Source of the DNA: an uncultured Spartobacteria bacterium
GTDB lineage: Bacteria > Verrucomicrobiota > Verrucomicrobiia > Chthoniobacterales > Chthoniobacteraceae
Reading direction: 5' to 3'
Length of the DNA: 62,765 nt
Assembly: GCA_903901425.1 (NCBI GenBank)
Contig: CAIURC010000151.1
Coordinates: forward strand, 1 to 62,765
Shown here piece after piece: positions 23,128 to 43,368 of this stretch; position 1 is the stretch's first letter; each line of letters opens with the position of its first letter. The translations under genes were made by a program, and so were the position numbers. The notes under the pieces were generated by a model, which was not told the origin of the DNA, ran no database searches, and saw nothing but the letters and a program-made list of their open reading frames with translations.

Positions 23128-23371
23128 CCCTTGGATCAAGAGGTTCGAGGAGGCCCTCCAAAAGTTCACCCCAGCCCGACCATGGCTGGAGAACAGCTCC
23201 CAACGAGGAAGGCTTGAGATCTCGTAAACTCCTTGGGGGGCGGATCCTCGACTGTCGGTAGAGTTCCATGGCCTCGCGCAAAAGTTCGGAAGTAGGCCGG
23301 TCCTGTTCCCGCGCATAGCGCTGAAAATCCGCCCACACCAGTTCACTGACGTCGAGGGTGATGGTCTTCAT
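23123..23371 (-). CDS. Ribbon-helix-helix antitoxin-like protein
   Basis: An 82-aa protein. MKTITLDVSELVWADFQRYA is a beta strand plus helix of a CopG/Arc-type ribbon-helix-helix DNA-binding fold, followed by the second helix TSELLREAMELYRQS. The C-terminal part (RSLRDLKPSSLGAVLQPW ... ELLEGLLEP) is the usual toxin-binding tail of antitoxins paired with PIN toxins. The start at 23371 sits inside a perfect 16-bp palindrome, a likely self-operator. The partner toxin downstream appears broken, so this may be an orphan antitoxin. The frame continues upstream to 23560 but that part is not protein-like. Confidence 0.75.
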   Translation of the reverse strand: MKTITLDVSELVWADFQRYAREQDRPTSELLREAMELYRQSRIRPPRSLRDLKPSSLGAVLQPWSGWGELLEGLLEPLDPRD

Positions 23372-23385
23372 CTCTTGTAAGAGAT
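23370..23385. promoter_or_regulatory. Perfect palindrome at antitoxin start
   Basis: ATCTCTT-GT-AAGAGAT, 7-bp arms with a 2-bp centre, overlapping the first two bases of the antitoxin start codon. The position and symmetry fit an operator for a ribbon-helix-helix dimer repressing its own gene. Confidence 0.6.
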
Positions 23386-23592
23386 ATTGGTAGGATGGCG
23401 CGTCAAGTGGATGCCGGGTGACTCGAAAGAATTGGCACGGGACCCCATGATGGAATCTGGCCCGAGGGCGGGGTGTTTTTTTCAAAAAAGAAAAGAAGGG
23501 CATTCCTCGGAGACTTTCTGGGGCGCAGTGGAGTTGTAAATGGGTAGGAGGTCCTACCAAAAATTATTGAAAAAGTCTAAGAATGGGGTGTA

Positions 23593-24678: not shown

Positions 24679-24690
24679 CGCGTTTGGATT

Positions 24691-27600: not shown

Positions 27601-27951
27601 CCCTCCGGCACGGTAGGGCAGCGTTTCGTCACCCACACGCCCCTGCAGGCTTTTGTTCTGATGAATGACGAGCTGACGCATGACCTTGCTGCGGACTGGG
27701 CCCGTTCAGTGCAATCCTCCGGAACCGGTTCCGGAGGGGCCATCGTGGATGCAGCGCTTCCCGGGATTTTGCAGAAACTGGCGCGGCAGCTTTTCACGCG
27801 CGAACTGGAGCCCGCAGAGATGCAGCGCTGGGTTTCGGAGGCCGGACCGCTGCGGGCGGCCCTGAACGGGAATGTGGGGGGCGGGAGCGATCCGTTTTTA
27901 AAGGAACTCTGCCATCTCTTTCTGATGTCGAACGATGCCCTGTATTTTTAA
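24691..27951 (+). CDS. DUF1549/DUF1553 (PSCyt2/PSD1) protein
   Basis: A 1086-aa secreted protein with an N-terminal hydrophobic segment. The DUF1549 domain (about residues 90-310) shows [23 protein letters not shown] and the heme-type [10 protein letters not shown] (Cys280-His284). The DUF1553 domain (about 795-1075) starts at [18 protein letters not shown] and includes [21 protein letters not shown] and the REKD/[14 protein letters not shown] blocks. Between them lies a roughly 450-residue jelly-roll-like insertion. Unlike the relative at 52438 it lacks the N-terminal PSCyt1 cytochrome domain, which instead sits in a separate gene at 29463. These families have no established activity; electron transfer linked to polysaccharide processing is a common guess. 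The DUF1501 gene follows after 4 bp. Confidence 0.92.
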   Translation: [1086 protein letters not shown]

Positions 27952-27955
27952 ACCC

Positions 27956-29437
27956 ATGTCTCCTTCTTCACTCTCCAGGCGTTCATGTTCTCGCAGGGAA
28001 ATGCTGGCCCGCTGTTCCATGGGGTTCGGGGGAATGGCGCTCTCCGGGCTGCTGTCCCCGTCCATGCTTCTGGCGGAACCCTCCATGCGGGGGGTGTTGG
28101 AACGCTCAGGTTCGGCGGTGATTCCGCCAAATGCCGGCAAGGCAAAAAGCGTGATCTTCCTTTTCATGCCCGGGGGCGTCTCGCATGTGGAGAGTTTTGA
28201 TCCCAAGCCGGTTTTGACCCGGGACCACGGGAAACCGTGTCCGATTGACGTGGTATCGCTCACGGGCTCGGGCAAGGGCAGTACCTGCATGAAATCGTTC
28301 TGGGAGTTTCGGCGGTATGGAAAGTCGGGGCTGGAGGTGAGCGATCTTTTTCCGCACATCGGGCATTGTGCGGACGATCTTGCGGTGATCCGTTCGATGA
28401 CAACGGGCATCCCGGCGCACGGTCCTTCGACGTACGCGATGCACACCGGGATGCCGATTGCGGGGCACCCGAGCATGGGAGCTTGGTTTTCGTATGGACT
28501 GGGCAGCTGCAACGCCAATCTTCCCTCGTTTGTGGTGGTGAACGGGGGCAACATGCCTGCGGGCGGAGCGGTGAATTACGCCAGCGGTTTTCTGCCTGCC
28601 AGCCACCAGGCGACGATGCTGGAGATTCAAACCGACTCCCTGGTGGAGAACCTCCAGCCGCGCGATTCCTCGGCGCTTCAACGGACAAAGTTGGAGTTGC
28701 TCCGCCGGCATGACGAGGAACGCCTGCGAGCCAGCGGAGGGGACAGTCTTCTGGAGGCGAGCATCCGGAGCATGGAACTGGCCAGCGCCATGCAGTTGAG
28801 CGTCCCTGAGGTCGCTGATTTGAAGGGGGAGACCCCGGCGACTCACCGGCTCTACGGCACGGATTCCACCTACAAACTCAAGGCGATCTACGCCCGGCAA
28901 TGCCTGGTTGCACGGCGCTTGGTGGAGCGCGGTGTGCGGTTTGTCGAGGTCGGGTTTCCCGTCACCGACTGGTCGGCACCGGGAAACGCGAATCCTACCT
29001 GGGACCAGCATGGCGACATCCTCAAGTATCATCCCCTGAACGCCTTCATTGTGGATCAGGCGATTGCAGGTCTTCTCAAGGACCTCAAGGCGCGCGGGCT
29101 GCTTGAGGACACACTTGTGGTCTGGGCCGGCGAGTTTGGGAGGACTCCCTTCCAGCAGGGGACGGGCGGTGTCACCGAGAAATCGGGCCGCGACCATCAT
29201 CCGCAGGGGTTTTCCATCTGGATGGCCGGGGGCGGCGTCAAAGGGGGGACGGTGTACGGAGCGACTGACGAGTACGGATGTTACGCGGTGGACAAAAAGA
29301 CCGACGTTCATGATCTCCACGCAACCATGTTGCATCTCACTGGAGTCCATCACAAGGAACTCACCTTCCGCCATGGCGGCCGTGATTACCGGCTAACAGA
29401 TGTTCACGGAAATGTTCTTCAGGAGATTCTGGCCTGA
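27956..29437 (+). CDS. DUF1501 twin-arginine exported protein
   Basis: A 493-aa member of the DUF1501 family, related in fold to alkaline phosphatase/sulfatase enzymes. The N terminus has a twin-arginine-like signal (SRREMLARCSMGFGG) and then the family start KAKSVIFLFMPGGVSHVESFDPK. Later blocks are typical: [60 protein letters not shown] and the VHDLHATMLHLTG metal-site-like motif. The ATG at 27956 lies 4 bp after the previous stop; a start at 27935 would overlap it. It forms the standard pair with the DUF1549/DUF1553 protein. Confidence 0.93.
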   Translation: MSPSSLSRRSCSRREMLARCSMGFGGMALSGLLSPSMLLAEPSMRGVLERSGSAVIPPNAGKAKSVIFLFMPGGVSHVESFDPKPVLTRDHGKPCPIDVVSLTGSGKGSTCMKSFWEFRRYGKSGLEVSDLFPHIGHCADDLAVIRSMTTGIPAHGPSTYAMHTGMPIAGHPSMGAWFSYGLGSCNANLPSFVVVNGGNMPAGGAVNYASGFLPASHQATMLEIQTDSLVENLQPRDSSALQRTKLELLRRHDEERLRASGGDSLLEASIRSMELASAMQLSVPEVADLKGETPATHRLYGTDSTYKLKAIYARQCLVARRLVERGVRFVEVGFPVTDWSAPGNANPTWDQHGDILKYHPLNAFIVDQAIAGLLKDLKARGLLEDTLVVWAGEFGRTPFQQGTGGVTEKSGRDHHPQGFSIWMAGGGVKGGTVYGATDEYGCYAVDKKTDVHDLHATMLHLTGVHHKELTFRHGGRDYRLTDVHGNVLQEILA

Positions 29438-29451
29438 CGGCGCGCATCCCT

Positions 29452-29460
29452 CCCCCCCCC
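29452..29460 (+). repeat. C9 tract before cytochrome gene
   Basis: Nine consecutive C between the DUF1501 stop and the ATG at 29463, occupying the place of a ribosome binding site. Length changes would alter spacing rather than frame. Confidence 0.6.
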
Positions 29461-29462
29461 GT

Positions 29463-30443
29463 ATGCCCATGAAGTTTTTTCCCTTGGTTCTGACTTTGGT
29501 TTGTCTCCCAAAGGTGTGGATTCCTGCGGCAAAGGCGGTGGCTGCAGAGCCTGCGGTTCCGTTCTCCGAGGTCTACCCGGTGCTTCAGAAGCATTGCGTG
29601 AAATGCCACGGCCCCGAGAAGGTGAAGGGAAAACTGCGGTTGGATACGCCCGAAGGATTGGAGGCGGGCGGTGTTTCCGGGGCGGTTCTGGTGGCAGGGG
29701 TGCCCGAGAAGAGTCTCCTCTACCAGCGCATTATCCTGCCCGAGGACGACGAAGAAGTGATGCCACCCAGCGGGAAGAAACTTTCCGAACCCGAACAGAA
29801 CACGCTCCGGAAGTGGATTGCGGCGGGTGCCTCCCGGGAGGGCTGGAATGCGGCTCAAGCGGGTGAAGGGATCCAGGTGGCTCCAGAGATCCGGGATGCG
29901 CTGCTCAAACTGAGGGCAGCGGGCGCTTATGCGGGCCCCCGGCATCAGGGAGCCTCGACCTATTGCGTGGATTTCAGGCTGCGTCGGTTGCCGATCCCTG
30001 CGGAGGTGTGGGCGGCGCTTGAGCCGTTGGCAGAGGGGCTTGAGGAATTGGATCTCTCAGGCCAGACGCTCCCGGAGGATGCCGCTTCGCTTTTGGGGAG
30101 AATGCCGCGACTGCGCCGGCTTTCGCTGAGGGCAAGTCCCTCGGTGGCCGAGATTCTCCGGGTCCCGCATCCGATTCCGGCGCTTGAGTTTCTCAACGTG
30201 TTTGGAAGCCCGCGCCTTCCGGGAGAGCCGGAATCGGCGTTCGCTGCGCGCCTTGCCGAGTGGCTTCGCACCCTTCCAGCGTTGCGGGGCCTGCATGTCG
30301 GCGGAGGGGTGTTCAGCGGGGAAACTCTCAAGGAATTGCAGGCAGCGTTCCCGAAGATCGATATGGTGGGCGATCCGGTTCTGGAGGCGCCTCCGGACGT
30401 GACCGACCCGCAGAAGGAGCACCCTCCCGCAAGGGTACACTAG
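29463..30443 (+). CDS. Secreted PSCyt1 cytochrome c with LRR-like tail
   Basis: A 326-aa protein with a signal peptide (KFFPLVLTLVCLPKVW region, Met at 29463 or 29469). The planctomycete cytochrome domain PSCyt1 follows, with VYPVLQKHCVKCHG (heme CVKCH) and a distal MPPSGKKL supplying a likely Met ligand. The C-terminal half has leucine-rich-repeat-like units (LEELDLSGQTL, LRRLSLRASPS, LEFLNVFGSPRL, LRGLHVGGGVF). It closes the operon begun at 23593 and appears to supply the cytochrome that the 24691 protein lacks. No ribosome site is seen; a C9 tract sits there. LRR-tailed cytochromes occur in PVC bacteria, but the role is unknown. Confidence 0.85.
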   Translation: MPMKFFPLVLTLVCLPKVWIPAAKAVAAEPAVPFSEVYPVLQKHCVKCHGPEKVKGKLRLDTPEGLEAGGVSGAVLVAGVPEKSLLYQRIILPEDDEEVMPPSGKKLSEPEQNTLRKWIAAGASREGWNAAQAGEGIQVAPEIRDALLKLRAAGAYAGPRHQGASTYCVDFRLRRLPIPAEVWAALEPLAEGLEELDLSGQTLPEDAASLLGRMPRLRRLSLRASPSVAEILRVPHPIPALEFLNVFGSPRLPGEPESAFAARLAEWLRTLPALRGLHVGGGVFSGETLKELQAAFPKIDMVGDPVLEAPPDVTDPQKEHPPARVH

Positions 30444-30706: not shown

Positions 30707-31468
30707 TCAGGAAGCCGCAGGGCGGCTCGCGGTCTTTTCGGATGCCGTGGGCTTGGGTTTTTTCCGCACAGGATTCTGCGCGGACTCGAGTTGCATGTCG
30801 CGCCCTGCTGCCAGGATGTGATTTTTCATGGCATCCGCAGCCGCTGTAGCGTCCCGGCGGAGGAGGGCTTCGAGCACCTGTCCGTGCTGATGGAGCGCTG
30901 GGGTTTTTCCGATTCTGCCGATGGTGCGGAGCCTGCTTTCCATGCCCAGATCGCCAAGGGAATCGAGGATCAGGCGAAGGATTTGGTTGCCGCTGGCCTG
31001 GACCACGGCCCTGTGCCATGCGAGGTCTGCCTCGATGGCGTCCTGTCCGTCTTGGGCGTCGAGCAAACGTTGATGGGCGGCCTCGATGATTTTCAATTGT
31101 TTGTCGGTGGCGCGCAGGGCGGCCAGACGGGCAGCCTCAGGCTCAATGGCCAGCCTGACTTCGTTGAGTTGGCGGAGCCTTTCGGGGACATCCGAGATCA
31201 GCATGGAAAGCGAGTCACTCAGGGGCTGATGAAATTTGCGGATGACCTTGGTGCCTGTGCCGTGCTGCACATCGAGCATGCCCCGCTGTTCGAGTCGTTT
31301 TGTCGCCTCCCGGACCACGGTCCTGCTGACGCCGAGTTTTTCGGCCAAAACCCGTTCCGGGGGCAGCCAGAAGTCTTCTTCCTCCGGGGTGTTCCGGATG
31401 ATTTCCAAGAGGCGTTCGCAGACTTCTTCGACGAGGGAGGAGGGGCGGCGGATGGCGGTGATTTTCAT
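30707..31468 (-). CDS. FadR-type GntR regulator
   Basis: A 253-aa regulator. The N-terminal winged helix-turn-helix (about 10-75) contains LPPERVLAEKLGVSRTVVREATKRLEQRGML, the GntR signature. The C-terminal FCD effector domain (about 90-230) has the expected metal-binding spread (EVRLAIEPEAARLAA, DLAWHRAVVQASGN, HGQVLEALLRRD). FCD members commonly sense 2-hydroxyacids or sugar acids such as lactate, glycolate or gluconate. It is the last gene of the aldonate/hydroxyacid cluster (25 bp after the SDR), so it probably regulates that cluster. The start at 31468 is the ATG before KITAIRRPSS. The C-terminal Lys/Pro/Ala tail is unusual. Confidence 0.92.
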   Translation of the reverse strand: MKITAIRRPSSLVEEVCERLLEIIRNTPEEEDFWLPPERVLAEKLGVSRTVVREATKRLEQRGMLDVQHGTGTKVIRKFHQPLSDSLSMLISDVPERLRQLNEVRLAIEPEAARLAALRATDKQLKIIEAAHQRLLDAQDGQDAIEADLAWHRAVVQASGNQILRLILDSLGDLGMESRLRTIGRIGKTPALHQHGQVLEALLRRDATAAADAMKNHILAAGRDMQLESAQNPVRKKPKPTASEKTASRPAAS

Positions 31469-31493: not shown

Positions 31494-32246
31494 TCAGTAG
31501 GTAGCACGGCCACCGGAGAGGTCAAACACTGCGCCTGTGCTGAAGCTGCATTCCTCGGAGCACAACCATGCCACGAGGGCCGCAGCCTCCTCCTTGCGGC
31601 CGAAGCGCCCCATGGGGATCTTGGAGAGCATGTAGTCGATGTGGCTTTGCTGCATTTGGAGAAGGATGTCGGTGGCGATGACGGCGGGCGTCACGGCATT
31701 GACGGTGATGTTGGAGGTGGCCAGTTCCTTTCCGAGGGACTTGGTGAGGGCGATGACCCCGGCCTTCGAGGCACTGTAATGGGCGGCATTCGGATTGCCC
31801 TCCTTGCCCGCGATGGAGGCGATGTTGACGATACGGCCGTAGCCCCCTTTGAGCATATGGGGAACCACGGATCGGCAGCAATAATACGGGCCATTCAGGT
31901 TGATTGCCAGGACCCGCTGCCAGTCTGCAGGAGCGATCTCCCAGGTCTTTGCATTGCCCCCGGTGATCCCGGCGTTGTTCACCAGAATGTCGATCCCGCC
32001 CAAGGCTGCAGCCGTGGCCTCAGCGGCGGATTCCACGGACTCGGGACTTGCCAGATCCACGGGCACGGTATGCACGGTGCCGCGGTCTGCGAGGTCCGAG
32101 GCTGCCGTCTGGAGTGCGCCGGGATCCACGTCCCAGAGTGCCACGGTGGCTCCCGAGTCCAGCAGGCGTTCGGCGATGGCCCGTCCGATTCCGCGCGCGC
32201 CTCCGGTGACAACGGCTTTTTTGTGGTGAAGTGCAATTTGGTTCAT
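31494..32246 (-). CDS. SDR-family sugar acid dehydrogenase
   Basis: A 250-aa classical short-chain dehydrogenase: nucleotide motif TGGARGIG (14-21), NNAG (90-93), catalytic Tyr157 and Lys161 in YSASK, and a C-terminal SGGRATY. It is cytoplasmic and NAD(P)-dependent. Its position in a cluster with an FAH hydrolase and lactonase suggests it oxidises C4 of a 2-keto-3-deoxy-aldonate, as do the known 2-keto-3-deoxy-L-fuconate/rhamnonate dehydrogenases; that specificity is inferred from context. Its ATG overlaps the GlcF-like stop by 4 bp, indicating translational coupling. Confidence 0.9.
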   Translation of the reverse strand: MNQIALHHKKAVVTGGARGIGRAIAERLLDSGATVALWDVDPGALQTAASDLADRGTVHTVPVDLASPESVESAAEATAAALGGIDILVNNAGITGGNAKTWEIAPADWQRVLAINLNGPYYCCRSVVPHMLKGGYGRIVNIASIAGKEGNPNAAHYSASKAGVIALTKSLGKELATSNITVNAVTPAVIATDILLQMQQSHIDYMLSKIPMGRFGRKEEAAALVAWLCSEECSFSTGAVFDLSGGRATY

Positions 32247-33484
32247 GATGGGGTTTGGGTTGAGCCTGTAAACTGGCGTTCGGGATCCAGAAGTTGGAGG
32301 ATGTGGCGGACCTCATAGGGGCGTTCCACAAGCCCCATGGACCGCGCAGAGTTCCACTGCATCATGCAGACGTGGTTGGATGTTCCCAGGATCACGGGGG
32401 CGCCCTCAGCGGAATTAAGAAAGGCGGATTTTTTCCTCAAAATCGCCGTGGCATTCCCGGGGTTCTGGATGTTGTATGCGCCTCCAGAACCGCAACAGTC
32501 GCGGGCGGCAGGAGCCAGTTCCCATGGGAGTCCTGTCGCATCGAGGACATTGGCCGGGATTCCCTCGGTTTTCTGTCCGTGCACCAGGTGACAGGGAAGG
32601 TCCACATAGAGACGTGCCCCGGGCTGGGAAGGACGTTTTTTTAGTGTTTCGAGGCTGCCCAAAAAAGTAAGGACATCCAGGACCGGATGTCCGCCAGCCA
32701 ACGCCTTTCCAAGGGCGTAGCCGCATCCGGAGGAGTTGGCGACAACGGCGTCCACCTCCTCCAGCGAAAAGGCCGAGCGGTTGCGTTGACGCAGTTCCTG
32801 TACCCCGTCAAATCCCATGTGTTCATGGAAAGCGCCGCAGCACCCCTGGGTTTCAGGGACAACGACCTGGACATTGTTTTCTACGAGAACGCGGAGGGTG
32901 GCGAAGTTGATCTCACGGAAAAGCGCCTCCATCACGCATCCCGTGAGGAGGGCAACTCGTGGTCCGGTGGGCCGGTGTTGTGCCATGAGTTGGCGGGCAT
33001 AGTCGGCTGTCCTTTGGAGGACGGGGGGATTGCCCTTGAAGAGAAACCGGTGCAGCGATCCGCCCAGCGTGCGGAGCAGTCGGGCCGGAAGGAGCGCGAG
33101 ATTCAGGGCGGCCTGGTTTTTCACCAGATGCGCCGCGATGCGAAGCGGCCATTTGGGTTTGAACCGGCCCTCCTGTACCTGCTGGTGACGCGCCTGTTCG
33201 AGGAGTTCCCCGAAGGGCACATGGGCGGGGCAGGCGGTTTCACAGGCAAGGCAGCCGACGCATTCGGCGGTGTAAAAATCCGTCATTGGATCCGGCTCAA
33301 GCCTTCCGGCGGCCTCCTCTCCCCAGAGGCGGACACGGCCCCTTGGCGAATTGTTTTCGTCGCCTGTCAGCTTGTAAGTGGGGCAGGCAGCGAGACAAAA
33401 ACCGCAGTGGGTGCAGTTTGAGAAAGGCGGGGTGGAACTCGAGCACGGGTGTTCTGCGGCCGGGTTGGGGGCGGTCGTGTTCAT
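32243..33484 (-). CDS. GlcF-like iron-sulfur subunit of hydroxyacid oxidase
   Basis: A 413-aa iron-sulfur protein with two ferredoxin-type clusters: CTHCGFCLAACP (Cys24, 27, 30, 34) and CVGCLACETACP. Two CCG domains follow (TQGCCGAFH and ARDCCGSGG), as in GlcF and related heterodisulfide reductase-like subunits. It passes electrons from the FAD subunit to the respiratory chain. It overlaps both neighbours by 4 bp (GlcE-like upstream, SDR downstream). Whether the enzyme oxidises glycolate or D-lactate is not decided by the sequence alone. The start is the ATG at 33484; the upstream open stretch is antisense-like. Confidence 0.92.
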   Translation of the reverse strand: MNTTAPNPAAEHPCSSSTPPFSNCTHCGFCLAACPTYKLTGDENNSPRGRVRLWGEEAAGRLEPDPMTDFYTAECVGCLACETACPAHVPFGELLEQARHQQVQEGRFKPKWPLRIAAHLVKNQAALNLALLPARLLRTLGGSLHRFLFKGNPPVLQRTADYARQLMAQHRPTGPRVALLTGCVMEALFREINFATLRVLVENNVQVVVPETQGCCGAFHEHMGFDGVQELRQRNRSAFSLEEVDAVVANSSGCGYALGKALAGGHPVLDVLTFLGSLETLKKRPSQPGARLYVDLPCHLVHGQKTEGIPANVLDATGLPWELAPAARDCCGSGGAYNIQNPGNATAILRKKSAFLNSAEGAPVILGTSNHVCMMQWNSARSMGLVERPYEVRHILQLLDPERQFTGSTQTPS

Positions 33485-34428
33485 GGGGTTTCGAGGGCTT
33501 CTTGAAGGATTTTGATCCATTCCCGTTCGGAAGCGCGTGGGGGAGGAGCGGGCAGGTGTTTGGAATGCCAGTCGCCACCGTCTGACTCGAGTTCGGGAGC
33601 CAGAGCGGTTCCCAGTGCGAGCGCCTGTGAGGCGGGGTCCCTGAGGCCCTTGAAGTAGGCGTGGACGACCCCGCTGTACCAGAGCGCCACGCAGCGGTGT
33701 CCTTCTTTGGCGATTCTCCGGGCCAGAGGCAGGGTGCGGTCGGGGGTGGTCTTCAAAACGAGGTCCGGAATGCCGTCCCATGTGCCTTCCGCGAGGGGGG
33801 CGGAGGTCACGGACACCTGCCTGCCGGAGGCAATTTCCGAAATGCGATGGGTGTAGATGGGGATTTCTTCAGGCACAGTGTGGTAAAGCACACGGAGCCG
33901 GAACCGGTTGTTTTCGGTGAGGAAATCGACGGAATCCCACCAGTGCATCCATCCGCTGTGGATGAACTCCCGGAGGCAGGCTTCCAGGGTTTCCGGGGTT
34001 CCTTCGAGGATCGCTGCCTGAGTCTGGCCGCATTCCGGTCGGAGCCGGAGCACGTAATCGACGGGGGATCCAAAGCGGTTTCCCGAATGCAACAGGAACC
34101 GGAGCCAGTCGTATCCTGTGGTGGTTTTGGCGACTTGCTCGCCCACGCGGACGAGCGTGCCATTCGGGCAGCGCCAGTTCATGCCCAGGATGTTGTCGCA
34201 GTAGGGACCAAAACGGCAGGAGGCAGGGGTGTGGGTGGCCGCATGGATGTGCTCGGAAAGTGAGGCCGTGGGATCCAGGAACAGGGGGAACCGCAGGCCA
34301 ACCGGGCTGCAGGTGGCGGCGATTTCGACCGGTGTGGAGGACGCAGAAACGCAGGCTGTGCCGTCCACGGGATCGAGGAAATGGGGGAACAGGCGTTCGG
34401 CAGCGGGTTCAAGGAGGGTGTGACTCAT
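33481..34428 (-). CDS. GlcE-like FAD-binding subunit
   Basis: A 315-aa truncated FAD-binding protein similar to GlcE, the second flavin subunit of glycolate oxidase. Seen are an FAD-site-like segment (LDPTASLSEHIHAATHTPASCRFGPYCDNILGMNWRC) and GTLVRVGEQVAKTTTGYDWLRFLLHSGNRFG, which matches the VKNVAGYD-type block of GlcE. It lacks the full GlcD FAD motifs, as expected for GlcE. It overlaps GlcD- and GlcF-like genes by 4 bp on each side, a tight three-gene coupling that supports a single complex. Confidence 0.85.
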   Translation of the reverse strand: MSHTLLEPAAERLFPHFLDPVDGTACVSASSTPVEIAATCSPVGLRFPLFLDPTASLSEHIHAATHTPASCRFGPYCDNILGMNWRCPNGTLVRVGEQVAKTTTGYDWLRFLLHSGNRFGSPVDYVLRLRPECGQTQAAILEGTPETLEACLREFIHSGWMHWWDSVDFLTENNRFRLRVLYHTVPEEIPIYTHRISEIASGRQVSVTSAPLAEGTWDGIPDLVLKTTPDRTLPLARRIAKEGHRCVALWYSGVVHAYFKGLRDPASQALALGTALAPELESDGGDWHSKHLPAPPPRASEREWIKILQEALETP

Positions 34429-35822
34429 GGCTGGAAACTCCGGGAAACAAGAACCTTGAGCGGGTTGAGCTGGTGGGACGCGTTGAACGCGCGGGGAACG
34501 GCCATTTGGAGGCGGAGGGATTCTTTTCCAAAAACCATGGGCATGTAGGCGGCCTTGTCGTTGCCGATACCATGTTCCCCGCTGAGAGTGCCGCCCACGG
34601 CAACCACCAGTTTCATGAGGTCTTTGCCGATCTTCTCGACTTTTTCGAGTTCACCCGGCACCCGCGAATCAAAGAGAAAGTTGGGATGCAGGTTGCCGTC
34701 GCCGGCATGGAAGACATTCACTGCACGGATTCCGGCGGCATCCGCCTGATCGTAGACGAACTGGAGTACCTGGGCGAGGGCCCGTTTGGGAATGACGGCA
34801 TCTTGCACCACGTAGTCTGGACTGATCTGGCCCAGCAGTCCGCCGGAGGCCTTTCTGGCTTTCCAGAGTTTTTTACGGACCTCGTCCCGGTCGCTGAACA
34901 TCACATCGGAGGAACCTGCGTTGCGGAGGATGGCAGCGATGGATTCGACGCGGCGGTCAACAAGGACGGTGGGGCCGTCGATCTCGGTGACGAGCATGAA
35001 GCAGCCGCTGGGCAGGCCAACAGCCATCTGACTGGCTTCCACCATCGCCACGCCCCGCGGGTCGAGCACCTCGATGGCCGCCGGGAACGAGGGATGGGCC
35101 GATAACGCGTGGATTGCAGACTCCAGTGAGCGGAGGTCGGGATAAGTGGCTCGAAAGGTCCACACTTTTTCTGGCAACGGAAGGAGCCGCAGCCAGAACC
35201 GGGTGAAGGCGGCCAGCGTGCCCTCCGATCCGATCATGAAACGCTTCCAGTCTTCCCGCCACGGTCCGCGGCCTCCAGCCGGGCCGCCAAAGCGGTGGAC
35301 AGTCCCATCGAGGGTGACCGCTTCCACGCCGAGGACGTAGTTGCTGGTCACGCCATAGCGGAAACAGTGCGCTCCACCGGCGTTGGAAGCGACGTTTCCT
35401 CCGAGCGTGCAGACAGGACCGCTCGAAGGGTCTGGAGGATAGAAGACGCCGTGGGGTTTGAGGGCCGCATCCAGGTCGTTCAAAGCTACTCCGGCTTCCA
35501 CCTCGCACCAGAACGCTTCCACGCAGATTTTCCGGATGGCACGCAGTCCGGAGGTGTGCACCACGACCCCTCCCTGCACGGCCACGGGGCCCCCGGAAAG
35601 GGAGGTCCCAGCGCCCCGGAGCACCACGGGAACCCCGAGATCTCTGGCGCCTGCCATGAGTGCGATGAGTTCCTCGGCGTCAGCAGGAATGGCAACTGCA
35701 TCGGGCAGGCTCCCCTTGTAGCCAAGACCGTCCGAGGCGTAGCCGGCCTTCTGCGCCGGGGAGGACAGGACACGGCCTCGGGGTAGAAGGCTTTGGAGTT
35801 GAGAGGTGAGAGTGGGGGGCAT
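34425..35822 (-). CDS. GlcD-like FAD-linked 2-hydroxyacid oxidase subunit
   Basis: A 465-aa FAD-linked oxidase of the GlcD/D-lactate dehydrogenase family. The PP-loop FAD motif is VVLRGAGTSLSGG, with GGNVASNAGGAHCFRYG and IGSEGTLAAFT further on. C-terminal catalytic/metal blocks are VFHAGDGNLHPNF and SGEHGIG. It oxidises a 2-hydroxyacid (glycolate or D-lactate in characterised members) to the 2-oxoacid. The gene begins 6 bp after the epimerase stop and overlaps GlcE-like by 4 bp. In this cluster its likely substrate is the hydroxyacid released by the FAH-type hydrolase. Confidence 0.93.
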   Translation of the reverse strand: MPPTLTSQLQSLLPRGRVLSSPAQKAGYASDGLGYKGSLPDAVAIPADAEELIALMAGARDLGVPVVLRGAGTSLSGGPVAVQGGVVVHTSGLRAIRKICVEAFWCEVEAGVALNDLDAALKPHGVFYPPDPSSGPVCTLGGNVASNAGGAHCFRYGVTSNYVLGVEAVTLDGTVHRFGGPAGGRGPWREDWKRFMIGSEGTLAAFTRFWLRLLPLPEKVWTFRATYPDLRSLESAIHALSAHPSFPAAIEVLDPRGVAMVEASQMAVGLPSGCFMLVTEIDGPTVLVDRRVESIAAILRNAGSSDVMFSDRDEVRKKLWKARKASGGLLGQISPDYVVQDAVIPKRALAQVLQFVYDQADAAGIRAVNVFHAGDGNLHPNFLFDSRVPGELEKVEKIGKDLMKLVVAVGGTLSGEHGIGNDKAAYMPMVFGKESLRLQMAVPRAFNASHQLNPLKVLVSRSFQP

Positions 35823-35828
35823 GGGGGG

Positions 35829-36932
35829 TTAATGCGCGGAGAACACGTAGGCCGTCCACGTCCGGTAGACTTCTCCGGGTCGCAGGACAATCGAGGGGAA
35901 CTCCGGGTGATGCAGGGAGTCGGGGTGGTGCTGGGTCTCGAGGCAGAATCCCTGATGCCGGCGGTACCGGGATCCCCCTTTGCCCTGGATCTCATTCATG
36001 TAGGTCGACGTGTACAGTTGGAGTCCAGGTTGGTCCGTGTACACCTCCATGCGCCTCCCGCTTTCAGGATCCTCAACTTCAGCCACCGGGACAATGGTTT
36101 CCGATCCAGAAGCGCGTTGGAGGACAAAATTATGGTCGTAGCCGCCCAGTGGGATTTGGGAGAACCGGCTGCCGATGGGGATGGGGCGGTGGAAGTCGAA
36201 GGGGGTGCCCGAGACCGGCGTCATTCTGCCTGTGGGCAGCATTTCCGGGCCGGCTTCGGTGATCTGTGTGGCTGCAATGCGGAGTGTCTGTGCTGAGACC
36301 GAGCCCGAGTCATGTCCGGCCAGATTGAAATACGCATGGTGGGTGAGGTTGACCGGTGTTGGCTTGTCTGTGGTGGCCTCGTATTCGATGAGCAGTGCAC
36401 CGGACTCCGTGACAACGTACTTTACCTGTGTCCTGAGCGAGCCCGGATACCCGTCCTCACCGTCCGGGCTTGTGTAGCTGAGAAGGAGTGCGGGGCCCCT
36501 GGGATCGGTGCGGGGTTCAGCCTTCCAAATCGATTTGCCAAGGCCCTTGAGGCCGCCGTGGAGGTGAAATTGTGTGCCCGGATGCAGCGCGAGGGAATAG
36601 GTGCGGCCCTCCAGATCGAATCTGCCCTCAGCGATGCGGTTTGCGACGCGGCCGGTGATGCAGCCGAAGTACACGGCGCCGTTCTGTTTTTCGTATTCGG
36701 GGAGGGAATCAAATCCGAGGACAACGTCCCTGAATTTTCCGGTGCGGTCGGGCACATGGAGTTCCGTGAGGATGCCGCCATAGGTGAGGATTTTGGCGGT
36801 GAGTCCGTGGGAGTTTTTGAGTGTGAACTGGTGGACGGGTTCGCCGTTCTGTGTGGAGCCGTAGGGGGTGGGGAGGGTTTGAGCTGCGGCGTGGAGGGAG
36901 AGGAGGGCTGGGAGGAAGGAGAAGGCTTTCAT
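35829..36932 (-). CDS. Secreted aldose 1-epimerase
   Basis: A 367-aa aldose epimerase (mutarotase) interconverting alpha and beta sugar anomers. The start at 36932 gives a signal peptide (MKAFSFLPALLSLHAAAQ), so it works outside the cytoplasm; an ATG at 36959 is also possible. Conserved blocks: GRVANRIAEGRFDLEGRTYSLALH, QFHLHGGLKGLGKSIW, catalytic-His region PVNLTHHAYFNLAG, GGYDHNFVL and the glutamate segment GFCLETQHHPDS. It is the first gene of a six-gene run ending with the regulator, with its own promoter (36955-36983). It would feed the anomer preferred by the sugar dehydrogenase. Confidence 0.93.
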   Translation of the reverse strand: MKAFSFLPALLSLHAAAQTLPTPYGSTQNGEPVHQFTLKNSHGLTAKILTYGGILTELHVPDRTGKFRDVVLGFDSLPEYEKQNGAVYFGCITGRVANRIAEGRFDLEGRTYSLALHPGTQFHLHGGLKGLGKSIWKAEPRTDPRGPALLLSYTSPDGEDGYPGSLRTQVKYVVTESGALLIEYEATTDKPTPVNLTHHAYFNLAGHDSGSVSAQTLRIAATQITEAGPEMLPTGRMTPVSGTPFDFHRPIPIGSRFSQIPLGGYDHNFVLQRASGSETIVPVAEVEDPESGRRMEVYTDQPGLQLYTSTYMNEIQGKGGSRYRRHQGFCLETQHHPDSLHHPEFPSIVLRPGEVYRTWTAYVFSAH

Positions 36933-36954
36933 GCTGGAGGTCACAAGGTAAGAG

Positions 36955-36983
36955 GTCATACCACATAGGGTTTGCATGGGCAA
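36955..36983 (-). promoter_or_regulatory. Promoter of the epimerase-glcDEF-SDR-gntR operon
   Basis: On the minus strand, -35 TTGCCC (36978-36983), 17-bp spacer ending TGG, and -10 TATGAC (36955-36960), making an extended -10. The 12-mer TGGTATGACCTC, starting at the end of the spacer, is identical to that in the promoter before the FAH gene. It fits the T-N-G-T-N3-A-C GntR-type pattern, so an operator may overlap. Confidence 0.6.
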
Positions 36984-37002
36984 CCTTTGTTTTTGACTCC
37001 TC

Positions 37003-38058
37003 TCAGCACCAGTGGGCTCCGAGGGCCTCGGTGTACACAGCGTACAAACTGCGGCTGCCCGTCATGAAGAGCCGGTTCCGTCTGGGCCCGCCAAAACACA
37101 GGTTGCTGCAGATTTCAGGGAGCAGGATCTGGCCGATCCGTTTGCCTTCCGGGGAGAAGATATGGACACCATCGTACCCCTCGCCCACCCAGCCCATGCC
37201 TGCCCACACATTGCCGTCCTTGTCGCAGCGGATTCCGTCCGCGAGTCCCGCCACCTCAGTGCCTTTGAGTTGCATGGTCATGGACGCAAACTCGCGGCCC
37301 TTGCGGAGCCGTGTTCCATCGACTTCCCAGACCTTGATGTTTTTTGGAGCCGCTGGGTAGTGGGTGGCTCCGGTGTCGCAGACATAGAGCTTGCGGTAAT
37401 CTGGGGAAAAACAAAGGCCGTTGGGTTTGTAGATTTCGTCGGTGACTATTTCGATCCCTCCGGACGGGTCGATGCGATAGACGGCTTCCTTGAGGTGGAG
37501 TTCGCCTTTGTGTCCCTCGAAGTTGCCTAGGCTGCCGTAACCCGGGTCAGTGAACCAGATGCTGCCATCGGGATGGACCACACCATCATTGGGAGCATTC
37601 AGGGGTTTGCCGTGGAAGCTGGAAGCGAGGATGGTGGTGGAGCCGTTGGGTTCATGCCGGACGACGCTTCGGCTGCCGTGTTCAAACGAGATCTGGCGGC
37701 CGGAGGCGTCAAAGGTGTTGCCGTTGCTGTGGCCGGCGGGTTTTCTGAGGGTGGAAACGGAGCCGTTGTCCTGAAGCCAGCGGAGTTGGGCGTCGTTGGG
37801 AATATCGCTCCAGACGAGGTAGCCGCCCCAGCCGCTCCATGCGGGGCCTTCAGCCCAATACATTCCGGTGTGGAGTCTTTCGACCGGTGCCATGCCAATT
37901 TTGTATTTTGCGAAGAGGGGATCGAGCACGAGCACGTCCGGTTCCGGGTAACGCACGGGTGGCGCTTCCTTGCCGTAGTCGCGTGCGAGGAGTGGGGTGG
38001 CGGCCAGGGAGCCGACCACGGAGAGAAAATTCCGGCGGGAGGTGGGAGGGTGATGCAT
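37003..38058 (-). CDS. SMP-30/gluconolactonase-type lactonase, exported
   Basis: A 351-aa six-bladed propeller of the SMP-30/gluconolactonase/LRE family, which hydrolyses aldonolactones. A twin-arginine signal (SRRNFLSVVGSLAA) indicates export. Family features visible are EGPAW (metal-ligand Glu), DGVVHPDGSIWFTDP with the preceding PND, KPNGLCFSPDYRKLYVCDTG and LADGIRCDKDGNVWAG (Asp ligand). It starts 31 bp after the permease gene and ends 70 bp before the epimerase. In context it would open the lactone made by the sugar dehydrogenase outside the cytoplasm. Confidence 0.9.
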   Translation of the reverse strand: MHHPPTSRRNFLSVVGSLAATPLLARDYGKEAPPVRYPEPDVLVLDPLFAKYKIGMAPVERLHTGMYWAEGPAWSGWGGYLVWSDIPNDAQLRWLQDNGSVSTLRKPAGHSNGNTFDASGRQISFEHGSRSVVRHEPNGSTTILASSFHGKPLNAPNDGVVHPDGSIWFTDPGYGSLGNFEGHKGELHLKEAVYRIDPSGGIEIVTDEIYKPNGLCFSPDYRKLYVCDTGATHYPAAPKNIKVWEVDGTRLRKGREFASMTMQLKGTEVAGLADGIRCDKDGNVWAGMGWVGEGYDGVHIFSPEGKRIGQILLPEICSNLCFGGPRRNRLFMTGSRSLYAVYTEALGAHWC

Positions 38059-38089
38059 GGCAGGTCAGAAGACGGTTTGGAAATCAGGG

Positions 38090-39415
38090 TCAGGTTTCGA
38101 GCCGTTGCCGGGAATCGACGAAAAACCAGCAGATGGCGCCCAGGAAATAGCTGACGGCGAAGCAAAGGATATTGATGGACCAGTTGCCGCCTGTGGCTTT
38201 GAGAACGCAGGGGACGATCATGGGGGCGAGGGCGCCGCTGACCTGGCCCAGAGTGTTCATGCTGCCTGCGAGAGCGCCGGTGTGACGGCCGCCGACGTCC
38301 ATGCAGCTTCCCCATGCGCCGGGCAGGGAAAGGTCGCTAAAGAAGGCAGCCATTCCGATCGCGAGCACGGAAGACACGGGGGAGTTCAAGCGCAACGAAA
38401 GAAGCAGCATGATTCCGGCCGTTCCCATCCCACCGACACCAAGAATCCTGCGGGCATTGGAAAGGCAGCCGACTTTTCCCGCGAGGCGTACCGAGAGTTG
38501 GCCGCAGGCGAGCGAGCCGAGGCCGCCGAAAAAGAGGGGGACGCAGGCCAGAAGTGCGCGCAGCAGTTCGCTGGTGCCGGTAAAGTGTTCGCGGAGATAG
38601 GTGGGGAACCAGGTGATGTAGAAGTACCATGCATAGGACATGAAGAAATACTGTCCCCAAAGCATCCAGACGGTTCGCATCCGGAACATGGAGGCCCATG
38701 GCATGGAATGGCCGTCTCCGGAATCTTGGGTGCCGATGTGAGCAAGTTCTGCGGGGTTGACTGCGGGGTGGTCCGAAGGGCGGTCGCGGAACCAGCGGGA
38801 AAAAGCGACGGCCCAGACAACTCCCAGGAGTCCAAAAACGAGGAAGACCCATCGGTAATGAAGTCCGAGGCCGTGGCCGCCGGTTTGGCTGCCGTCCGCA
38901 AGCATCCAGCCGACCAGGAGAGGGGTGAATGCGCCGCCCCAGCGTGCGCCCAGCCAGAGGGTTCCCTGTGCGGAAACCCGTTCCAGAGGGGGAAACCAGT
39001 TTGAGAACGCCCGGGTGATGTTCGGAAAGCAGCCCGCCTCGCCCATGCCAAAGAAGAAGCGGCAGACGATGAGTGCCGGGAGGCTCCACGCCCAACCGGT
39101 GGCAATGGTGAAGAGAGACCACATGGCGACCACGCGCATCAGGACTTTCCGGGGCCCGATTTTATCCCCGAGCCAGCCGCCTGGGATCTCAAAGATGGCG
39201 TACGCCCAGCCGAAGGCGGTGAACGCGTACCCCATCTGGATTTTGTCCAGCCCGAGTTCATTCTGGATGGCTTGGGTAGACTGGGCAATGCAGACCCGGT
39301 CCACGTAGGTGATGACGGCAAGGATTGTCGCAAACCAGAGGACAACATAGCGGGCGCGGGACGCCGGAGATGCGGCGTGCGGGGGGGCGATCACAGGGGG
39401 CGGCGGGGTGTTCAT
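38090..39415 (-). CDS. MFS transporter, anion:cation symporter type
   Basis: A 441-aa major facilitator permease with about 12 hydrophobic segments. ITYVDRVCIAQSTQ near the start and GGWLGDKIGPRKVLMR in the 2-3 loop place it with the ACS sugar-acid/anion importers. The N terminus is Pro-rich and cytoplasmic. The start at 39415 avoids a low-complexity extension overlapping the dehydrogenase gene. It lies between the sugar dehydrogenase (26 bp) and lactonase (31 bp) genes, so import of the resulting aldonate is the most economical role. It resembles the permease at 16644 in overall layout. Confidence 0.9.
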   Translation of the reverse strand: MNTPPPPVIAPPHAASPASRARYVVLWFATILAVITYVDRVCIAQSTQAIQNELGLDKIQMGYAFTAFGWAYAIFEIPGGWLGDKIGPRKVLMRVVAMWSLFTIATGWAWSLPALIVCRFFFGMGEAGCFPNITRAFSNWFPPLERVSAQGTLWLGARWGGAFTPLLVGWMLADGSQTGGHGLGLHYRWVFLVFGLLGVVWAVAFSRWFRDRPSDHPAVNPAELAHIGTQDSGDGHSMPWASMFRMRTVWMLWGQYFFMSYAWYFYITWFPTYLREHFTGTSELLRALLACVPLFFGGLGSLACGQLSVRLAGKVGCLSNARRILGVGGMGTAGIMLLLSLRLNSPVSSVLAIGMAAFFSDLSLPGAWGSCMDVGGRHTGALAGSMNTLGQVSGALAPMIVPCVLKATGGNWSINILCFAVSYFLGAICWFFVDSRQRLET

Positions 39416-39441
39416 GGGAGGCGTGAGTGCGTGGACTGTTT

Positions 39442-42069
39442 TCAGGGCAGAAACTCCACCCAGTTCAAGCCCAGCACCGTGTCCGGTTCCGGGCAGCGTG
39501 CGACCACGCAGAGATCCAATAGGCCCTCCGTGGGGAAAAGCGGGGCGGAGAGTTCCCGGAACGCGCCTTCCCCGGTGGGAGGCACGTCGATGGACGCGAT
39601 CAACGGACCCTCTGGGGAACCTGCACGAAGTTCGACTCTGCCGCCGGTTTTTCCAAAGCAGCCGGCCCGGAATTTTGCGCGCTGGATGCCCTGGAGGCGG
39701 AGGTCCTTCCAAAGAATATGGGTGCCGTTTTTGAAGTGTCCGACGATGCCCATTTCGCCTTCCACCTGTTCCACATAAGCCATGCCATGGTTGATATCGT
39801 ACAGGGCCGCTTTTTTCCGGCGCGAATGAAGCACCACGGTATCTTTTCCCTCGAGCCTTGGAAAGGTTCCGCCCCGTCCGTCGTCGGTATAGGCGGCGGT
39901 GAGAATGAGGACACCCTCATTGGCGCGGATGTTCTCCCCGGGTTTTTGCGGGGCGCGGTAGACGCCCTGGGCACCCGGAACGGGGGCGGTCCCGTCATTC
40001 CCGAGAGCGAGAACCCAGGCGATCATCTGGCGGATCTGGTCCGGGGTATGTTGGGGATGTGGAGGCATGGGAAGTTGTCCCCAGACCCCGGTTCCTCCGG
40101 AGAGCACCTTCTGCGACAGCCGTTCCAGTGCACCCGCATCGTTTTTGTATTTCATGGCCACAGTGCGGTAGGCCGGTCCTGCGGAGGTCGTTTCAATCTG
40201 GTGGCAGGAAAAACACGTGCTGCCCCGCATCTGTGACAGACCCGGGTCTGAAGCCCCGGACTCAGCATCCCCAGCGAAGCGGCGGCCCCGGAACTCGCCA
40301 CGGACAAGGGCAGTCCCGGGGTTTGGACTGTCGCCATCGGACTCCGTGATGCGGAGGGAGTAGGGGATGTTGTCGTTCCAATCGAAGAACGAACCGTGGA
40401 CGGGTTGTTGAAAGCGGACCACGGGTCGTCCGTTGCCGACGTGGACAGTTTCTTTGGCGACCGAGGATGCGCCGGCCGGGTCTGAGACTGTGACGGCGAC
40501 TTCGAAACTGCCTGCCTGGTCAAACGAATGGTGGAATTGCGCGGTGTGGGAGTCTGTTTTCTGTCCGTTGACCGTCCATGTGTACTGGAGGGGGTCTCCA
40601 TCGGGATCAGAAGATGCGGTGGCATCCATTTGGAAATGGAACGGCGGCACGCCAGCGTTTTCCTGCGCGGTGATCCTGGCCCGCGGAGGGCGGTTCCCCC
40701 TGCGGTAAACAATGCGAACCAGTCGGCTGTCGGAGTTCTTCCACCACTGGTCCCCGTACTCAAGCATGTACAGGGCGCCGTCGGGGCCGAACTTCATGTC
40801 AATGGGCCGCCGCAGGTTCCAGGAGGCGAGGAAGGGTTCCGGAACAAATTTTGGGGAGTCTGTCTGTGCGGTCTGGATCCAGTTCCTCATCCATTCGAAG
40901 AGAAAGAGCCGGCCGTGGTAAAACTCCGGGAATTTGATCTGCGAGGGGTTTGCGGTGGAGTACCGGTAGACCGGGCCGGTCATCAGGGTGCGTCCGCCAG
41001 AACCGACGGTGGGAAAATCGCGGGACACTAAGTTCGAGTACCACAACAGCGCGCCGCGGGCAGGGGGCAGGGCCTGAACACCAGTATTGTTGGGGGACTC
41101 GTTTTTCGGAGACTGCGGCTGTTGGACGCCCAAGGGGCGGTTTCGCTCAAAATCAAAGAGGGGTAGCGCTTCATTCGGGCCCACAAAGTAGGGCCATCCA
41201 AAATTGGCAGCGGCCCGTGTCGCGTTGAGTTCCTCGTATCCGGAGGGGTTGATCTGGAGTTCCGGGAGAACGTTCGGGCCGACATCTGCGATGAAAAGGG
41301 TTCCCGAGGTGTCATCGACGGAAATCCGGAACGGGTTGCGCAAACCCATGCAGTAGATCTCTGGCGCACCTTCCTGACCTCCGGGAAACAGGTTTCCGTC
41401 TGGAATGGTGTACCCGCCATTTACCAGTGGGTGGATCCGCAGAATTTTCCCGCGGAGATCGCGTGAGTTCGCTGCGGAGCGTTGTGCGTCCCAGTTTTTT
41501 CGCCCGGGCCGGGAGTCCACGGGGAGGCCCGGGTTCCAGTGGCAGTTGTCTCCGGTGCCTACGTAGAGGTCGCTCTTCGCATCCATCCACAGGCCGCCGC
41601 CCATGTGGAAGACATGCTCGGTGTCGTAGGGCCAGGAGAGAAGGATCTTTTCCGAGTCGGGCAGGAGTTTTCCCCGGGTGCAGGTCCAGCGGCTGACTCG
41701 CATGGTGCCGGGTGCGGATTCCGGGCAGAACAGGGTGAAGAGGTGGCCTGAAACCTGAAAGTCGCGGGCGATAGCCAGACCGAGGAGGCCGACTTCCCCA
41801 GCGGCATGGACAGCGAGTTTTCCGACTGGATGTACCACGCCGGTTTTGGCGTCCCAGAGTTTGAGTTCGCCCTCAAACTCGGCGAACAAGACATCCCCGT
41901 TGTCCAAGACCTCGAGTTGGAGGGCGTCGTGTGCGGAAGGTGCAAGGATCTCCCGCTCGAACCGTTCTGGATCCGGGATTTCGACTGCAGCCAACGGATG
42001 TGACGTCAGAATGCCGCAGGCTAGGACACGCGCTGCAAGGAGGAGTGGACGCAGGATGGGAACACTCAT
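39442..42069 (-). CDS. PQQ-type sugar dehydrogenase-PKD-cytochrome c-CBM6
   Basis: An 875-aa secreted multidomain protein (signal peptide within the first ~30 residues). Residues about 35-430 are a glucose/sorbosone dehydrogenase propeller: GEVGLLGLAIARDF, HMGGGLWMDAKSDLYVGTGDN with the likely catalytic His, GKILRIHPLVNGG, GLRNPFRISVD, ANFGWPYF and FGPDGALYMLEYG. A PKD domain follows (TASSDPDGDPLQYTW), then a cytochrome c-like segment with one CFSCH, and a CBM6-like C-terminal module ending LGLNWVEFLP. The domain chain suggests oxidation of sugar ends on bound glycan with electrons passed to the fused heme. The sugar is not known, and some family members bind no PQQ. Confidence 0.87.
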   Translation of the reverse strand: MSVPILRPLLLAARVLACGILTSHPLAAVEIPDPERFEREILAPSAHDALQLEVLDNGDVLFAEFEGELKLWDAKTGVVHPVGKLAVHAAGEVGLLGLAIARDFQVSGHLFTLFCPESAPGTMRVSRWTCTRGKLLPDSEKILLSWPYDTEHVFHMGGGLWMDAKSDLYVGTGDNCHWNPGLPVDSRPGRKNWDAQRSAANSRDLRGKILRIHPLVNGGYTIPDGNLFPGGQEGAPEIYCMGLRNPFRISVDDTSGTLFIADVGPNVLPELQINPSGYEELNATRAAANFGWPYFVGPNEALPLFDFERNRPLGVQQPQSPKNESPNNTGVQALPPARGALLWYSNLVSRDFPTVGSGGRTLMTGPVYRYSTANPSQIKFPEFYHGRLFLFEWMRNWIQTAQTDSPKFVPEPFLASWNLRRPIDMKFGPDGALYMLEYGDQWWKNSDSRLVRIVYRRGNRPPRARITAQENAGVPPFHFQMDATASSDPDGDPLQYTWTVNGQKTDSHTAQFHHSFDQAGSFEVAVTVSDPAGASSVAKETVHVGNGRPVVRFQQPVHGSFFDWNDNIPYSLRITESDGDSPNPGTALVRGEFRGRRFAGDAESGASDPGLSQMRGSTCFSCHQIETTSAGPAYRTVAMKYKNDAGALERLSQKVLSGGTGVWGQLPMPPHPQHTPDQIRQMIAWVLALGNDGTAPVPGAQGVYRAPQKPGENIRANEGVLILTAAYTDDGRGGTFPRLEGKDTVVLHSRRKKAALYDINHGMAYVEQVEGEMGIVGHFKNGTHILWKDLRLQGIQRAKFRAGCFGKTGGRVELRAGSPEGPLIASIDVPPTGEGAFRELSAPLFPTEGLLDLCVVARCPEPDTVLGLNWVEFLP

Positions 42070-42106
42070 GGGAACAGGACTGGAAAATTTATAGAATGCC
42101 GTCGTT

Positions 42107-42964
42107 TTAGACCGCTGCCTTTGCTGTCTGTTTCTGGGTGCCCAACCCCTCAATTCCCAGTTCCACCACATCGCCGGGTTTGAGAAAAATGGGTTCCGGC
42201 TTGAGGCCGAGGCCGACGCCGGGAGGTGTTCCGGTGCTGATGATGTCGCCCGGAAGCAGCGTCATGAACTGGCTGATGTAACTCACCAGATGGGAGACAC
42301 CAAACACCATTTGTGCGGTGTTGCTGTTCTGGCGTGTCACGCCATTGACACTCAGCCAGAGGCGGAGGTTCTGAGGGTTGGGGATTTCGTCCCGGGTTGC
42401 GAGGAAGGGACCGAAGGGGGCGAATGTGTCGCTGCTTTTCCCTTTGACCCATTGGCCGCCCCGTTCCAGTTGCCATGCGCGTTCGCTGTAATCGTTGTGG
42501 AGGGCGTAGCCTGCGACATGCTCAAGGGCGTCCGCTTCACAGACGCCGCTTGCGCGCCGACCAATCACAATGGCCAGTTCCACCTCCCAGTCTGTCTTGA
42601 GCGAACCGCGGGGGATGATCACCTCGTCGTCCGGCCCCACCATGGCGCTGGTTGCCTTGAAAAAGAGAACGGGTTCGGTCGGGATGGGCATCCCGGATTC
42701 CGCGGCATGATCGGCGTAGTTCAGGCCAACGCAGACAATTTTGCTGGGACGGGCAATGCAGGGCCCCAGGCGGACGGAGGGGTCGATGACTGGAGCGCTC
42801 CCGGCATGGTTTTTTGCCCAGTGGGCGAGGCGCTCGAGCCCGTCGTGGGCAAAGAAGGCCTCGTCGTAGTCGGAGCCGAATTGGGAGGCGTCAATGCGGC
42901 GGCCGTCTGGGAGGAGGAGGCCGGGGGTTTCGGATTGAGGGGGGCCAAAGCGAAGGAGTTTCAT
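42107..42964 (-). CDS. FAH-family 2,4-diketo-3-deoxy-aldonate hydrolase-like
   Basis: A 285-aa fumarylacetoacetate hydrolase-fold enzyme. Metal-binding acidic residues are in KTDWEVELAIVIG, and the blocks CVGLNYADHAAESG, NDYSERAWQLERGGQWVKGKSSDTF and DIISTGTPPGVGLG match the subgroup containing L-2,4-diketo-3-deoxyrhamnonate/fuconate hydrolases, which cleave a diketo acid to pyruvate plus a 2-hydroxyacid. The assignment to that reaction is inferred from the subgroup pattern and its neighbours (SDR, lactonase, permease, hydroxyacid oxidase). It is the promoter-proximal gene of the cluster, with a strong extended -10 promoter upstream and the dehydrogenase gene 37 bp downstream. Confidence 0.9.
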   Translation of the reverse strand: MKLLRFGPPQSETPGLLLPDGRRIDASQFGSDYDEAFFAHDGLERLAHWAKNHAGSAPVIDPSVRLGPCIARPSKIVCVGLNYADHAAESGMPIPTEPVLFFKATSAMVGPDDEVIIPRGSLKTDWEVELAIVIGRRASGVCEADALEHVAGYALHNDYSERAWQLERGGQWVKGKSSDTFAPFGPFLATRDEIPNPQNLRLWLSVNGVTRQNSNTAQMVFGVSHLVSYISQFMTLLPGDIISTGTPPGVGLGLKPEPIFLKPGDVVELGIEGLGTQKQTAKAAV

Positions 42965-43368
42965 GGTGGTGCGGGGTTGTCTCTGAGGAAGGAGGTCATA
43001 CCAGTTAGGGGCGCGGGGGGCAAATTTATTTCTGCTCCGGCGATGCCCGGTGGCGCGCGTGCCCTCAGTGCGTTTTTCCCAGGGGACAGAAAAAGGCGCC
43101 GAGTCCCGGCATCGGAATCGTTTGCAAGTGCAGTCAGCAGGGGTGGATCCGGCGGCAAATATGCTGCGCTGTGTTACCGCCCCAAATCGGGCAGGTGCGA
43201 TCGGGTTTAGAAGTTTGCGCCCCTCGATCGAGGGTGCGCTTGGTTGAAGTCAGGACAAGTTTGCGGCTAGGGTTCATGCCGCGACTGGTCTTCCAGAATT
43301 TCTCCCGGGCCCTGAACATGACTGGCACCCGGCGGCACCATGGTGGCTGGGAGGGCTGAGGCTGTTGC
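42965..43368. other. Intergenic region holding the FAH-gene promoter
   Basis: The first ~60 bp contain the extended -10 promoter of the FAH-led operon. In the remaining ~340 bp no gene, RNA or clear terminator was recognised; short open frames there are not protein-like. Confidence 0.4.
42995..43023 (-). promoter_or_regulatory. Promoter of the FAH-led half of the cluster
   Basis: On the minus strand, -35 TTGCCC (43018-43023), 17-bp spacer ending CTGG, and -10 TATGAC (42995-43000), about 30 bp upstream of the FAH start. The -35, spacer length, extended -10 and following bases are the same as in the promoter at 36955-36983, while the rest of the spacer differs. Confidence 0.62.

Follow-up and report, generated by a model that had tools for sequence, protein, structure and literature searches.

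A rare, conserved sequence upstream of sugar-acid catabolism genes is probably the operator of a FadR-type GntR regulator in Spartobacteria

The stretch of DNA analyzed here (hereafter the window) comprises 62,765 nucleotides from an uncultured Spartobacteria bacterium and carries two convergent operons. The minus-strand operon starts with a FAH-family hydrolase gene (42107..42964), followed by genes for a glucose/sorbosone-dehydrogenase-like protein fused with PKD, cytochrome c and CBM6 domains (39442..42069), an MFS sugar-acid transporter of the 2A0114 type (38090..39415), an SMP-30/gluconolactonase-like lactonase (37003..38058) and a GalM-like aldose 1-epimerase (35829..36932). Downstream from these are genes encoding a GlcD-like FAD-linked 2-hydroxyacid oxidase (34425..35822), a protein without Pfam or NCBIfam match that is called GlcE-like by its position only (33481..34428), a GlcF-like iron-sulfur subunit (32243..33484) and an SDR dehydrogenase (31494..32246). 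The last gene of the operon, gntR (30707..31468, minus strand), encodes a regulator of the FadR subfamily (FCD), the presumed binder of the operators described below. The plus-strand operon (23593-30443) encodes a protein without family match (23593..24678), a PSCyt2-PSD1 (DUF1549/DUF1553) protein (24691..27951), a DUF1501 protein (27935..29437) and a PSCyt1 protein, a planctomycete-type cytochrome c (29469..30443). Divergent from this operon, a short open frame starting MKTITLDVSELVWADFQRYAREQDR (~23300-23372, minus strand) looks like a small antitoxin-type protein. The enzymes of the minus-strand operon suggest a route of the L-rhamnonate/L-fuconate type that yields lactate and pyruvate and includes GlcDEF-like oxidation; the NCBIfam model nearest to the FAH-family protein is 2,4-didehydro-3-deoxy-L-rhamnonate hydrolase, with a score (358.6 bits) below the equivalog cut-off of 500. 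No rhamnonate/fuconate dehydratase gene was found in the cluster, and enolase-superfamily genes are present elsewhere in the genome.

The GntR protein contains an N-terminal winged helix (PF00392, 1.6e-14) and a C-terminal FCD effector domain (PF07729, 4.8e-25), both above cut-off. In an ungapped alignment to E. coli FadR (1hw1), numbered according to Table 1 of PMC4494728, the FadR contact residues E34, R35, R45, T46, R49, E50, H65 and G66 are matched, with substitutions of T44 by S and of T47 by V. These eight residues are invariant across 11 GntR orthologs. The protein scores under the cut-off of every named NCBIfam equivalog: GlcC, LldR, NanR and PdhR all fall far below, the best being NanR, LldR (107 vs a cut-off of 311 bits) and GlcC (105 vs 301 bits). 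Elsewhere in the same genome, on contig C207 (L031, ~1467-1484), a distant GntR gene (35%) is immediately preceded by TGGTCCTACCATCCTACC, which is a FadR-type site and carries an additional TCCTACC box of its own; the gene adjoins an SDR gene and an enolase-superfamily gene.

Two similar minus-strand blocks precede genes of the minus-strand operon, TTGCCCCCCGCGCCCCTAACTGGTATGACCTCCTTCC before the FAH gene (42995-43023) and TTGCCCATGCAAACCCTATGTGGTATGACCTCTTACC before the epimerase gene (36955-36983). A first-pass annotation had described them as TTGCCC, exactly 17 bp and then TGGTATGACCTC. Both blocks are present, with a gap of 14 bp between TTGCCC and TGGTATGACCTC: the exact search for TTGCCC-N17-TGGTATGACCTC gave no match, and a spacing of 17 bp is obtained only when the -10 is taken to be TATGAC within the 12-mer. 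CCCTA-N2 immediately 5' of TGGT is also common to both blocks. The flanks of the two sites are 31% and 28% identical over 200 bp up- and downstream, in agreement with the earlier view that the region is not duplicated.

The 12-mer TGGTATGACCTC has exactly two copies in the 5.10-Mb genome, these two. The extended sequence TGGTANGACCTCNTNCC occurs three times without mismatch, each time in the window, and a fourth copy with one mismatch is located at C37:9748. Frequent occurrence of the motif across the genome had been named as the result that would speak against a specific role; the motif is instead rare, with two exact 12-mers and three exact extended sites, all in the window. Operator 1, TGGTATGACCTCCTTCC (42987..43003, minus strand; core 42994-43003), lies 22 nt 5' of the ATG of the FAH-family hydrolase gene. 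Operator 2, TGGTATGACCTCTTACC (36947..36963, minus strand), lies 14 nt 5' of the epimerase ATG, within the 70-bp gap between the lactonase and epimerase genes. Operator 3, TGGTAGGACCTCCTACC (23543..23559, minus strand), is found 33 nt 5' of the plus-strand operon, of which 23593 is the first gene; TGGTAGGACC at 23550-23559 surfaced in the one-mismatch scan. The C37 site, which like operator 3 is an addition to the two sites first annotated, heads another PSCyt1-PSD1-DUF1501 operon. The two original sites do not simply flank two halves of an island, as had been suggested. Operator 1 is at the start of the minus-strand operon, operator 2 lies within it, and operator 3 precedes the convergent operon. 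No site is found directly 5' of gntR in the window. The remaining two copies of TGGTACGACCTC in this genome sit within long open frames. Only matches with zero or one mismatch were used, since a scan allowing two mismatches gave noise (15 matches vs 59 control matches).

Orthologs of the window GntR are present in 11 of 40 family genomes, its own included (56-63% identity, E < 1e-75). Their neighbourhoods are mostly alike, with SDR (77-80% identity, adjoining gntR), GlcD (81%) and MFS (73%) genes, and PSCyt/PSD1/DUF1501 genes nearby. The scan of syntenic clusters that the first-pass annotation had proposed as a check found a GGT-N3-ACC site at this gene region in all 11 ortholog genomes, placed before sdr-gntR, gntR or glcD in the relatives and before the FAH and epimerase genes in the window. 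The exact 13-mer TGGTAWGACCTCY was detected in 9 of the 11 ortholog genomes vs 5 of the 29 others (Fisher p = 0.0003, the genomes being related and neither they nor their sites independent trials). The two ortholog genomes without it carry one-mismatch copies, AGGTATGACCTC and TGGTATGACCAC, before sdr-gntR, and in the five non-ortholog genomes the matches are intragenic or precede unrelated genes. In the ortholog genomes, sites precede gntR, sdr, glcD (its own operator in G008 and G014), MFS (its own operator in G010), PSCyt1/PSD1 and esterase genes. Extra sites are found before MFS, esterase, sulfatase, acetylesterase and cytochrome genes; in G008, G010, G013, G014 and G015 the genes that follow such sites were named solely from homology to genes of the window or from inspection of their translations. 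The named carriers of this GntR belong to the Verrucomicrobiota (Spartobacteria, Chthoniobacteraceae), the records labelled Opitutae or Akkermansia being metagenome bins of the same kind. In Verrucomicrobium sp. BvORR106, the gene for a 48% identical protein has TGGTCAGACCA directly 5' of it.

The core A-N-TGGT-ANG-ACCTC(T/C), with an ACC box at +14, recurs at both positions in the minus-strand operon, ahead of the convergent plus-strand operon, and before or among the matching genes of the ten other genomes with this GntR. Among 23 aligned sites, GGTA and ACC are invariant and the T at position 0 nearly so, and the A at -2 mirrors a T at +12. The centre base varies (T in 18, A in 3, G in 2), a variation expected in an operator but not in a -10 element. 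The FadR-subfamily operator consensus is TKGT-N3-ACMA (PMC4494728). All 23 sites contain the GGT-N3-ACC core, +10 is a T, and the outer right A of the consensus is found in 2 of 23. The fit to a GntR/FadR-type T-N-G-T-N3-A-C pattern, already pointed out from the two original sites, is retained for the core TGGT-ANG-ACCTC, which follows TKGT-N3-AC and differs from the ACMA consensus at +10. The accessory ACC box at +14 is present in 12 of 23 sites vs 0-4 at other offsets; GntR-family sites are described as having weaker accessory boxes 7-12 nt from the centre (PMC4494728).

These boxes could also be read as part of a wider palindrome, GGTANGA-CC-TCNTACC, in which a dimer would read two half-sites 8 bp apart. 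This palindrome is perfect in one relative (G012, GGTAAGACCTCTTACC) and also at 23543 (GGTAGGACCTCCTACC), where bases are changed on both sides. Across the 23 sites, however, ACC at +7 to +9 is found without exception, TACC at +13 in 5 and ACC at +14 in 12. An invariant ACC beside partial +13/+14 boxes fits a main site with a weaker accessory box, and we consider the wider palindrome unlikely.

We assign a probability of roughly 0.87 to the shared block TGGTATGACCTC being an operator for the FadR-type GntR repressor whose gene lies at 30707-31468. The first-pass annotation had proposed that this protein could repress transcription by binding partly over a promoter. The co-occurrence with orthologs, the pattern fit and the contact residues strongly support the operator half of that proposal, as far as sequence comparison can tell; the promoter half is not supported.

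In the primary-promoter alternative, the block would be a sigma-70-type promoter, TTGCCC-17-TATGAC, with a repeated architecture and an incidental likeness to a GntR site. The same hexamers do occur twice in the genome at the same spacing, and TATGAC ends 30 nt (FAH) and 22 nt (epimerase) 5' of the start codon, a plausible distance. A run of at least 6 at the same offset was common to two random 40-mers of the window in 1% of draws; the shared TTGCCC is weak evidence given this chance level of ~1%. Against a primary promoter, TTGCCC (43018..43023 and 36978..36983, minus strand, the supposed -35 elements of the FAH and epimerase genes) is absent at this offset from all 39 other genomes despite the kept core, and is also missing at operators 3 and 4. 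The centre T of TATGAC varies between constant neighbours, and the hexamers (4/6 + 4/6 matches to TTGACA/TATAAT) fall below the threshold of the promoter scan, which does not list them. Pairs of this quality at 16-18 bp spacing occur in the window at ~0.7 per kb per strand. We regard a primary promoter as very improbable. The two identical promoters claimed earlier are unproven, TTGCCC-N14-TGGTNNNACC being found only at these two sites among the 40 family genomes; a local promoter made of TTGCCC and TATGAC is possible.

An operator overlapping a promoter, with GntR covering a TATGAC -10 at these two sites, is conceivable though rather doubtful. The position relative to the start codons fits, and TTGACT is found 12 bp 5' of the core in three relatives; the spacer from this TTGACT to TATGAC is, however, 15 bp and not 17. 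In many relatives, moreover, a CTAAGA box lies 17-18 bp before a hexamer ending in the T of TGGT, and the -10 would then be located immediately 5' of the core instead. The rare hexamer CTAAGA is located at -28 or -29 from TGGT in 11 of the 23 sites (L038-L042, L051, L056, L057, L064, L068 and others), with further instances beyond these, and in G003 it also accompanies other GntR-type centres (TGGTCATACC). This box is possibly a -35-like element. Inspection by eye of the 75-bp upstream stretches revealed no common TTG that would make it a -10, and it is absent 5' of the window operators. A frequent general promoter element was ruled out (16 copies in 335 kb, both strands). About 17 bp downstream from operator 3 lies CTAAGAAT (23577-23584, plus strand), an arrangement mirrored with respect to the relatives. 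The reading of the conserved element as an operator, and not as the promoter proposed from the sequence alone, appears well supported by these comparisons.

The sites might also be bound mainly by another GntR of the genome, such as a 70%-identical paralog (gntR2, C5:88803-89555). Its protein keeps the recognition helix, and no operator of this type was found near C5:88803. Across the family, however, the motif tracks the orthologs adjoining catabolic genes, and binding mainly by the paralog or another GntR seems quite improbable. The paralog gene (L032, 9950-11836) faces a gene whose product is 70% identical to the 23593 protein, of which a homolog follows gntR in G039. The sequence preceding the paralog gene looks like the end of the sdr gene, as if an sdr-gntR-23593 block in the G039 order had been duplicated and sdr lost.

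With the window GntR as the binder, a dimer would block transcription by occupying TGGT-N3-ACC at the promoter or slightly downstream of it, whether or not TTGCCC and TATGAC form that promoter. A sugar-acid or 2-hydroxyacid intermediate, of the L-rhamnonate/L-fuconate type or lactate/glycolate, might release the protein, and gntR, as the last gene of the operon, would be autoregulated. The locus very probably carries a switch of an ordinary kind that controls genes for sugar-acid breakdown, and offers a candidate regulator-operator pair, experimentally testable, in the little-studied Verrucomicrobiota. A broader proposal, which we hold tentatively and at somewhat less than even odds, is that one FadR-type regulator acts through a conserved TGGTANGACCTC(NNACC) operator on both the sugar-acid/2-hydroxyacid operon and the PSCyt1/PSD1/DUF1501 operons, with a promoter-like CTAAGA box at a fixed distance in several relatives. 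The sites would link the PSCyt/PSD1/DUF1501 operons, whose products belong to large families that have no known function, with a catabolic regulon; if true, a shared regulator would connect these abundant orphan families with the use of deoxysugars or sugar acids.

Our literature searches found no description of GntR regulons in Verrucomicrobia, and nothing on point for DUF1501/DUF1553 and the diketo-rhamnonate pathway. The system resembles the FadR-subfamily regulators E. coli FadR, PdhR, GlcC and LldR in its GntR and FCD domains and contact residues, in an operator with a TGGT-N3-ACC core and an accessory half-site at 7-12 nt from the centre, and in a presumed role in oxidised-carbon catabolism, but the right arm of the operator is ACCTC here and not ACCA (PMC4494728). 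The survey table of that study does not include the phylum Verrucomicrobiota. Operons for non-phosphorylating L-rhamnose/L-fucose use by the diketo-hydrolase route share with this cluster an FAH hydrolase nearest to 2,4-didehydro-3-deoxy-L-rhamnonate hydrolase, an SDR, a lactonase and a transporter, whereas the present cluster lacks a rhamnonate/fuconate dehydratase and its substrate is putative. GlcC and LldR regulate glycolate and L-lactate use, respectively, and are encoded beside glcDEF or lld genes. Both are among the best NCBIfam matches of the window GntR and share its glcDEF-like neighbourhood; the present protein scores far below their curated cut-offs, and its operon adds FAH, SDR, lactonase and MFS genes.
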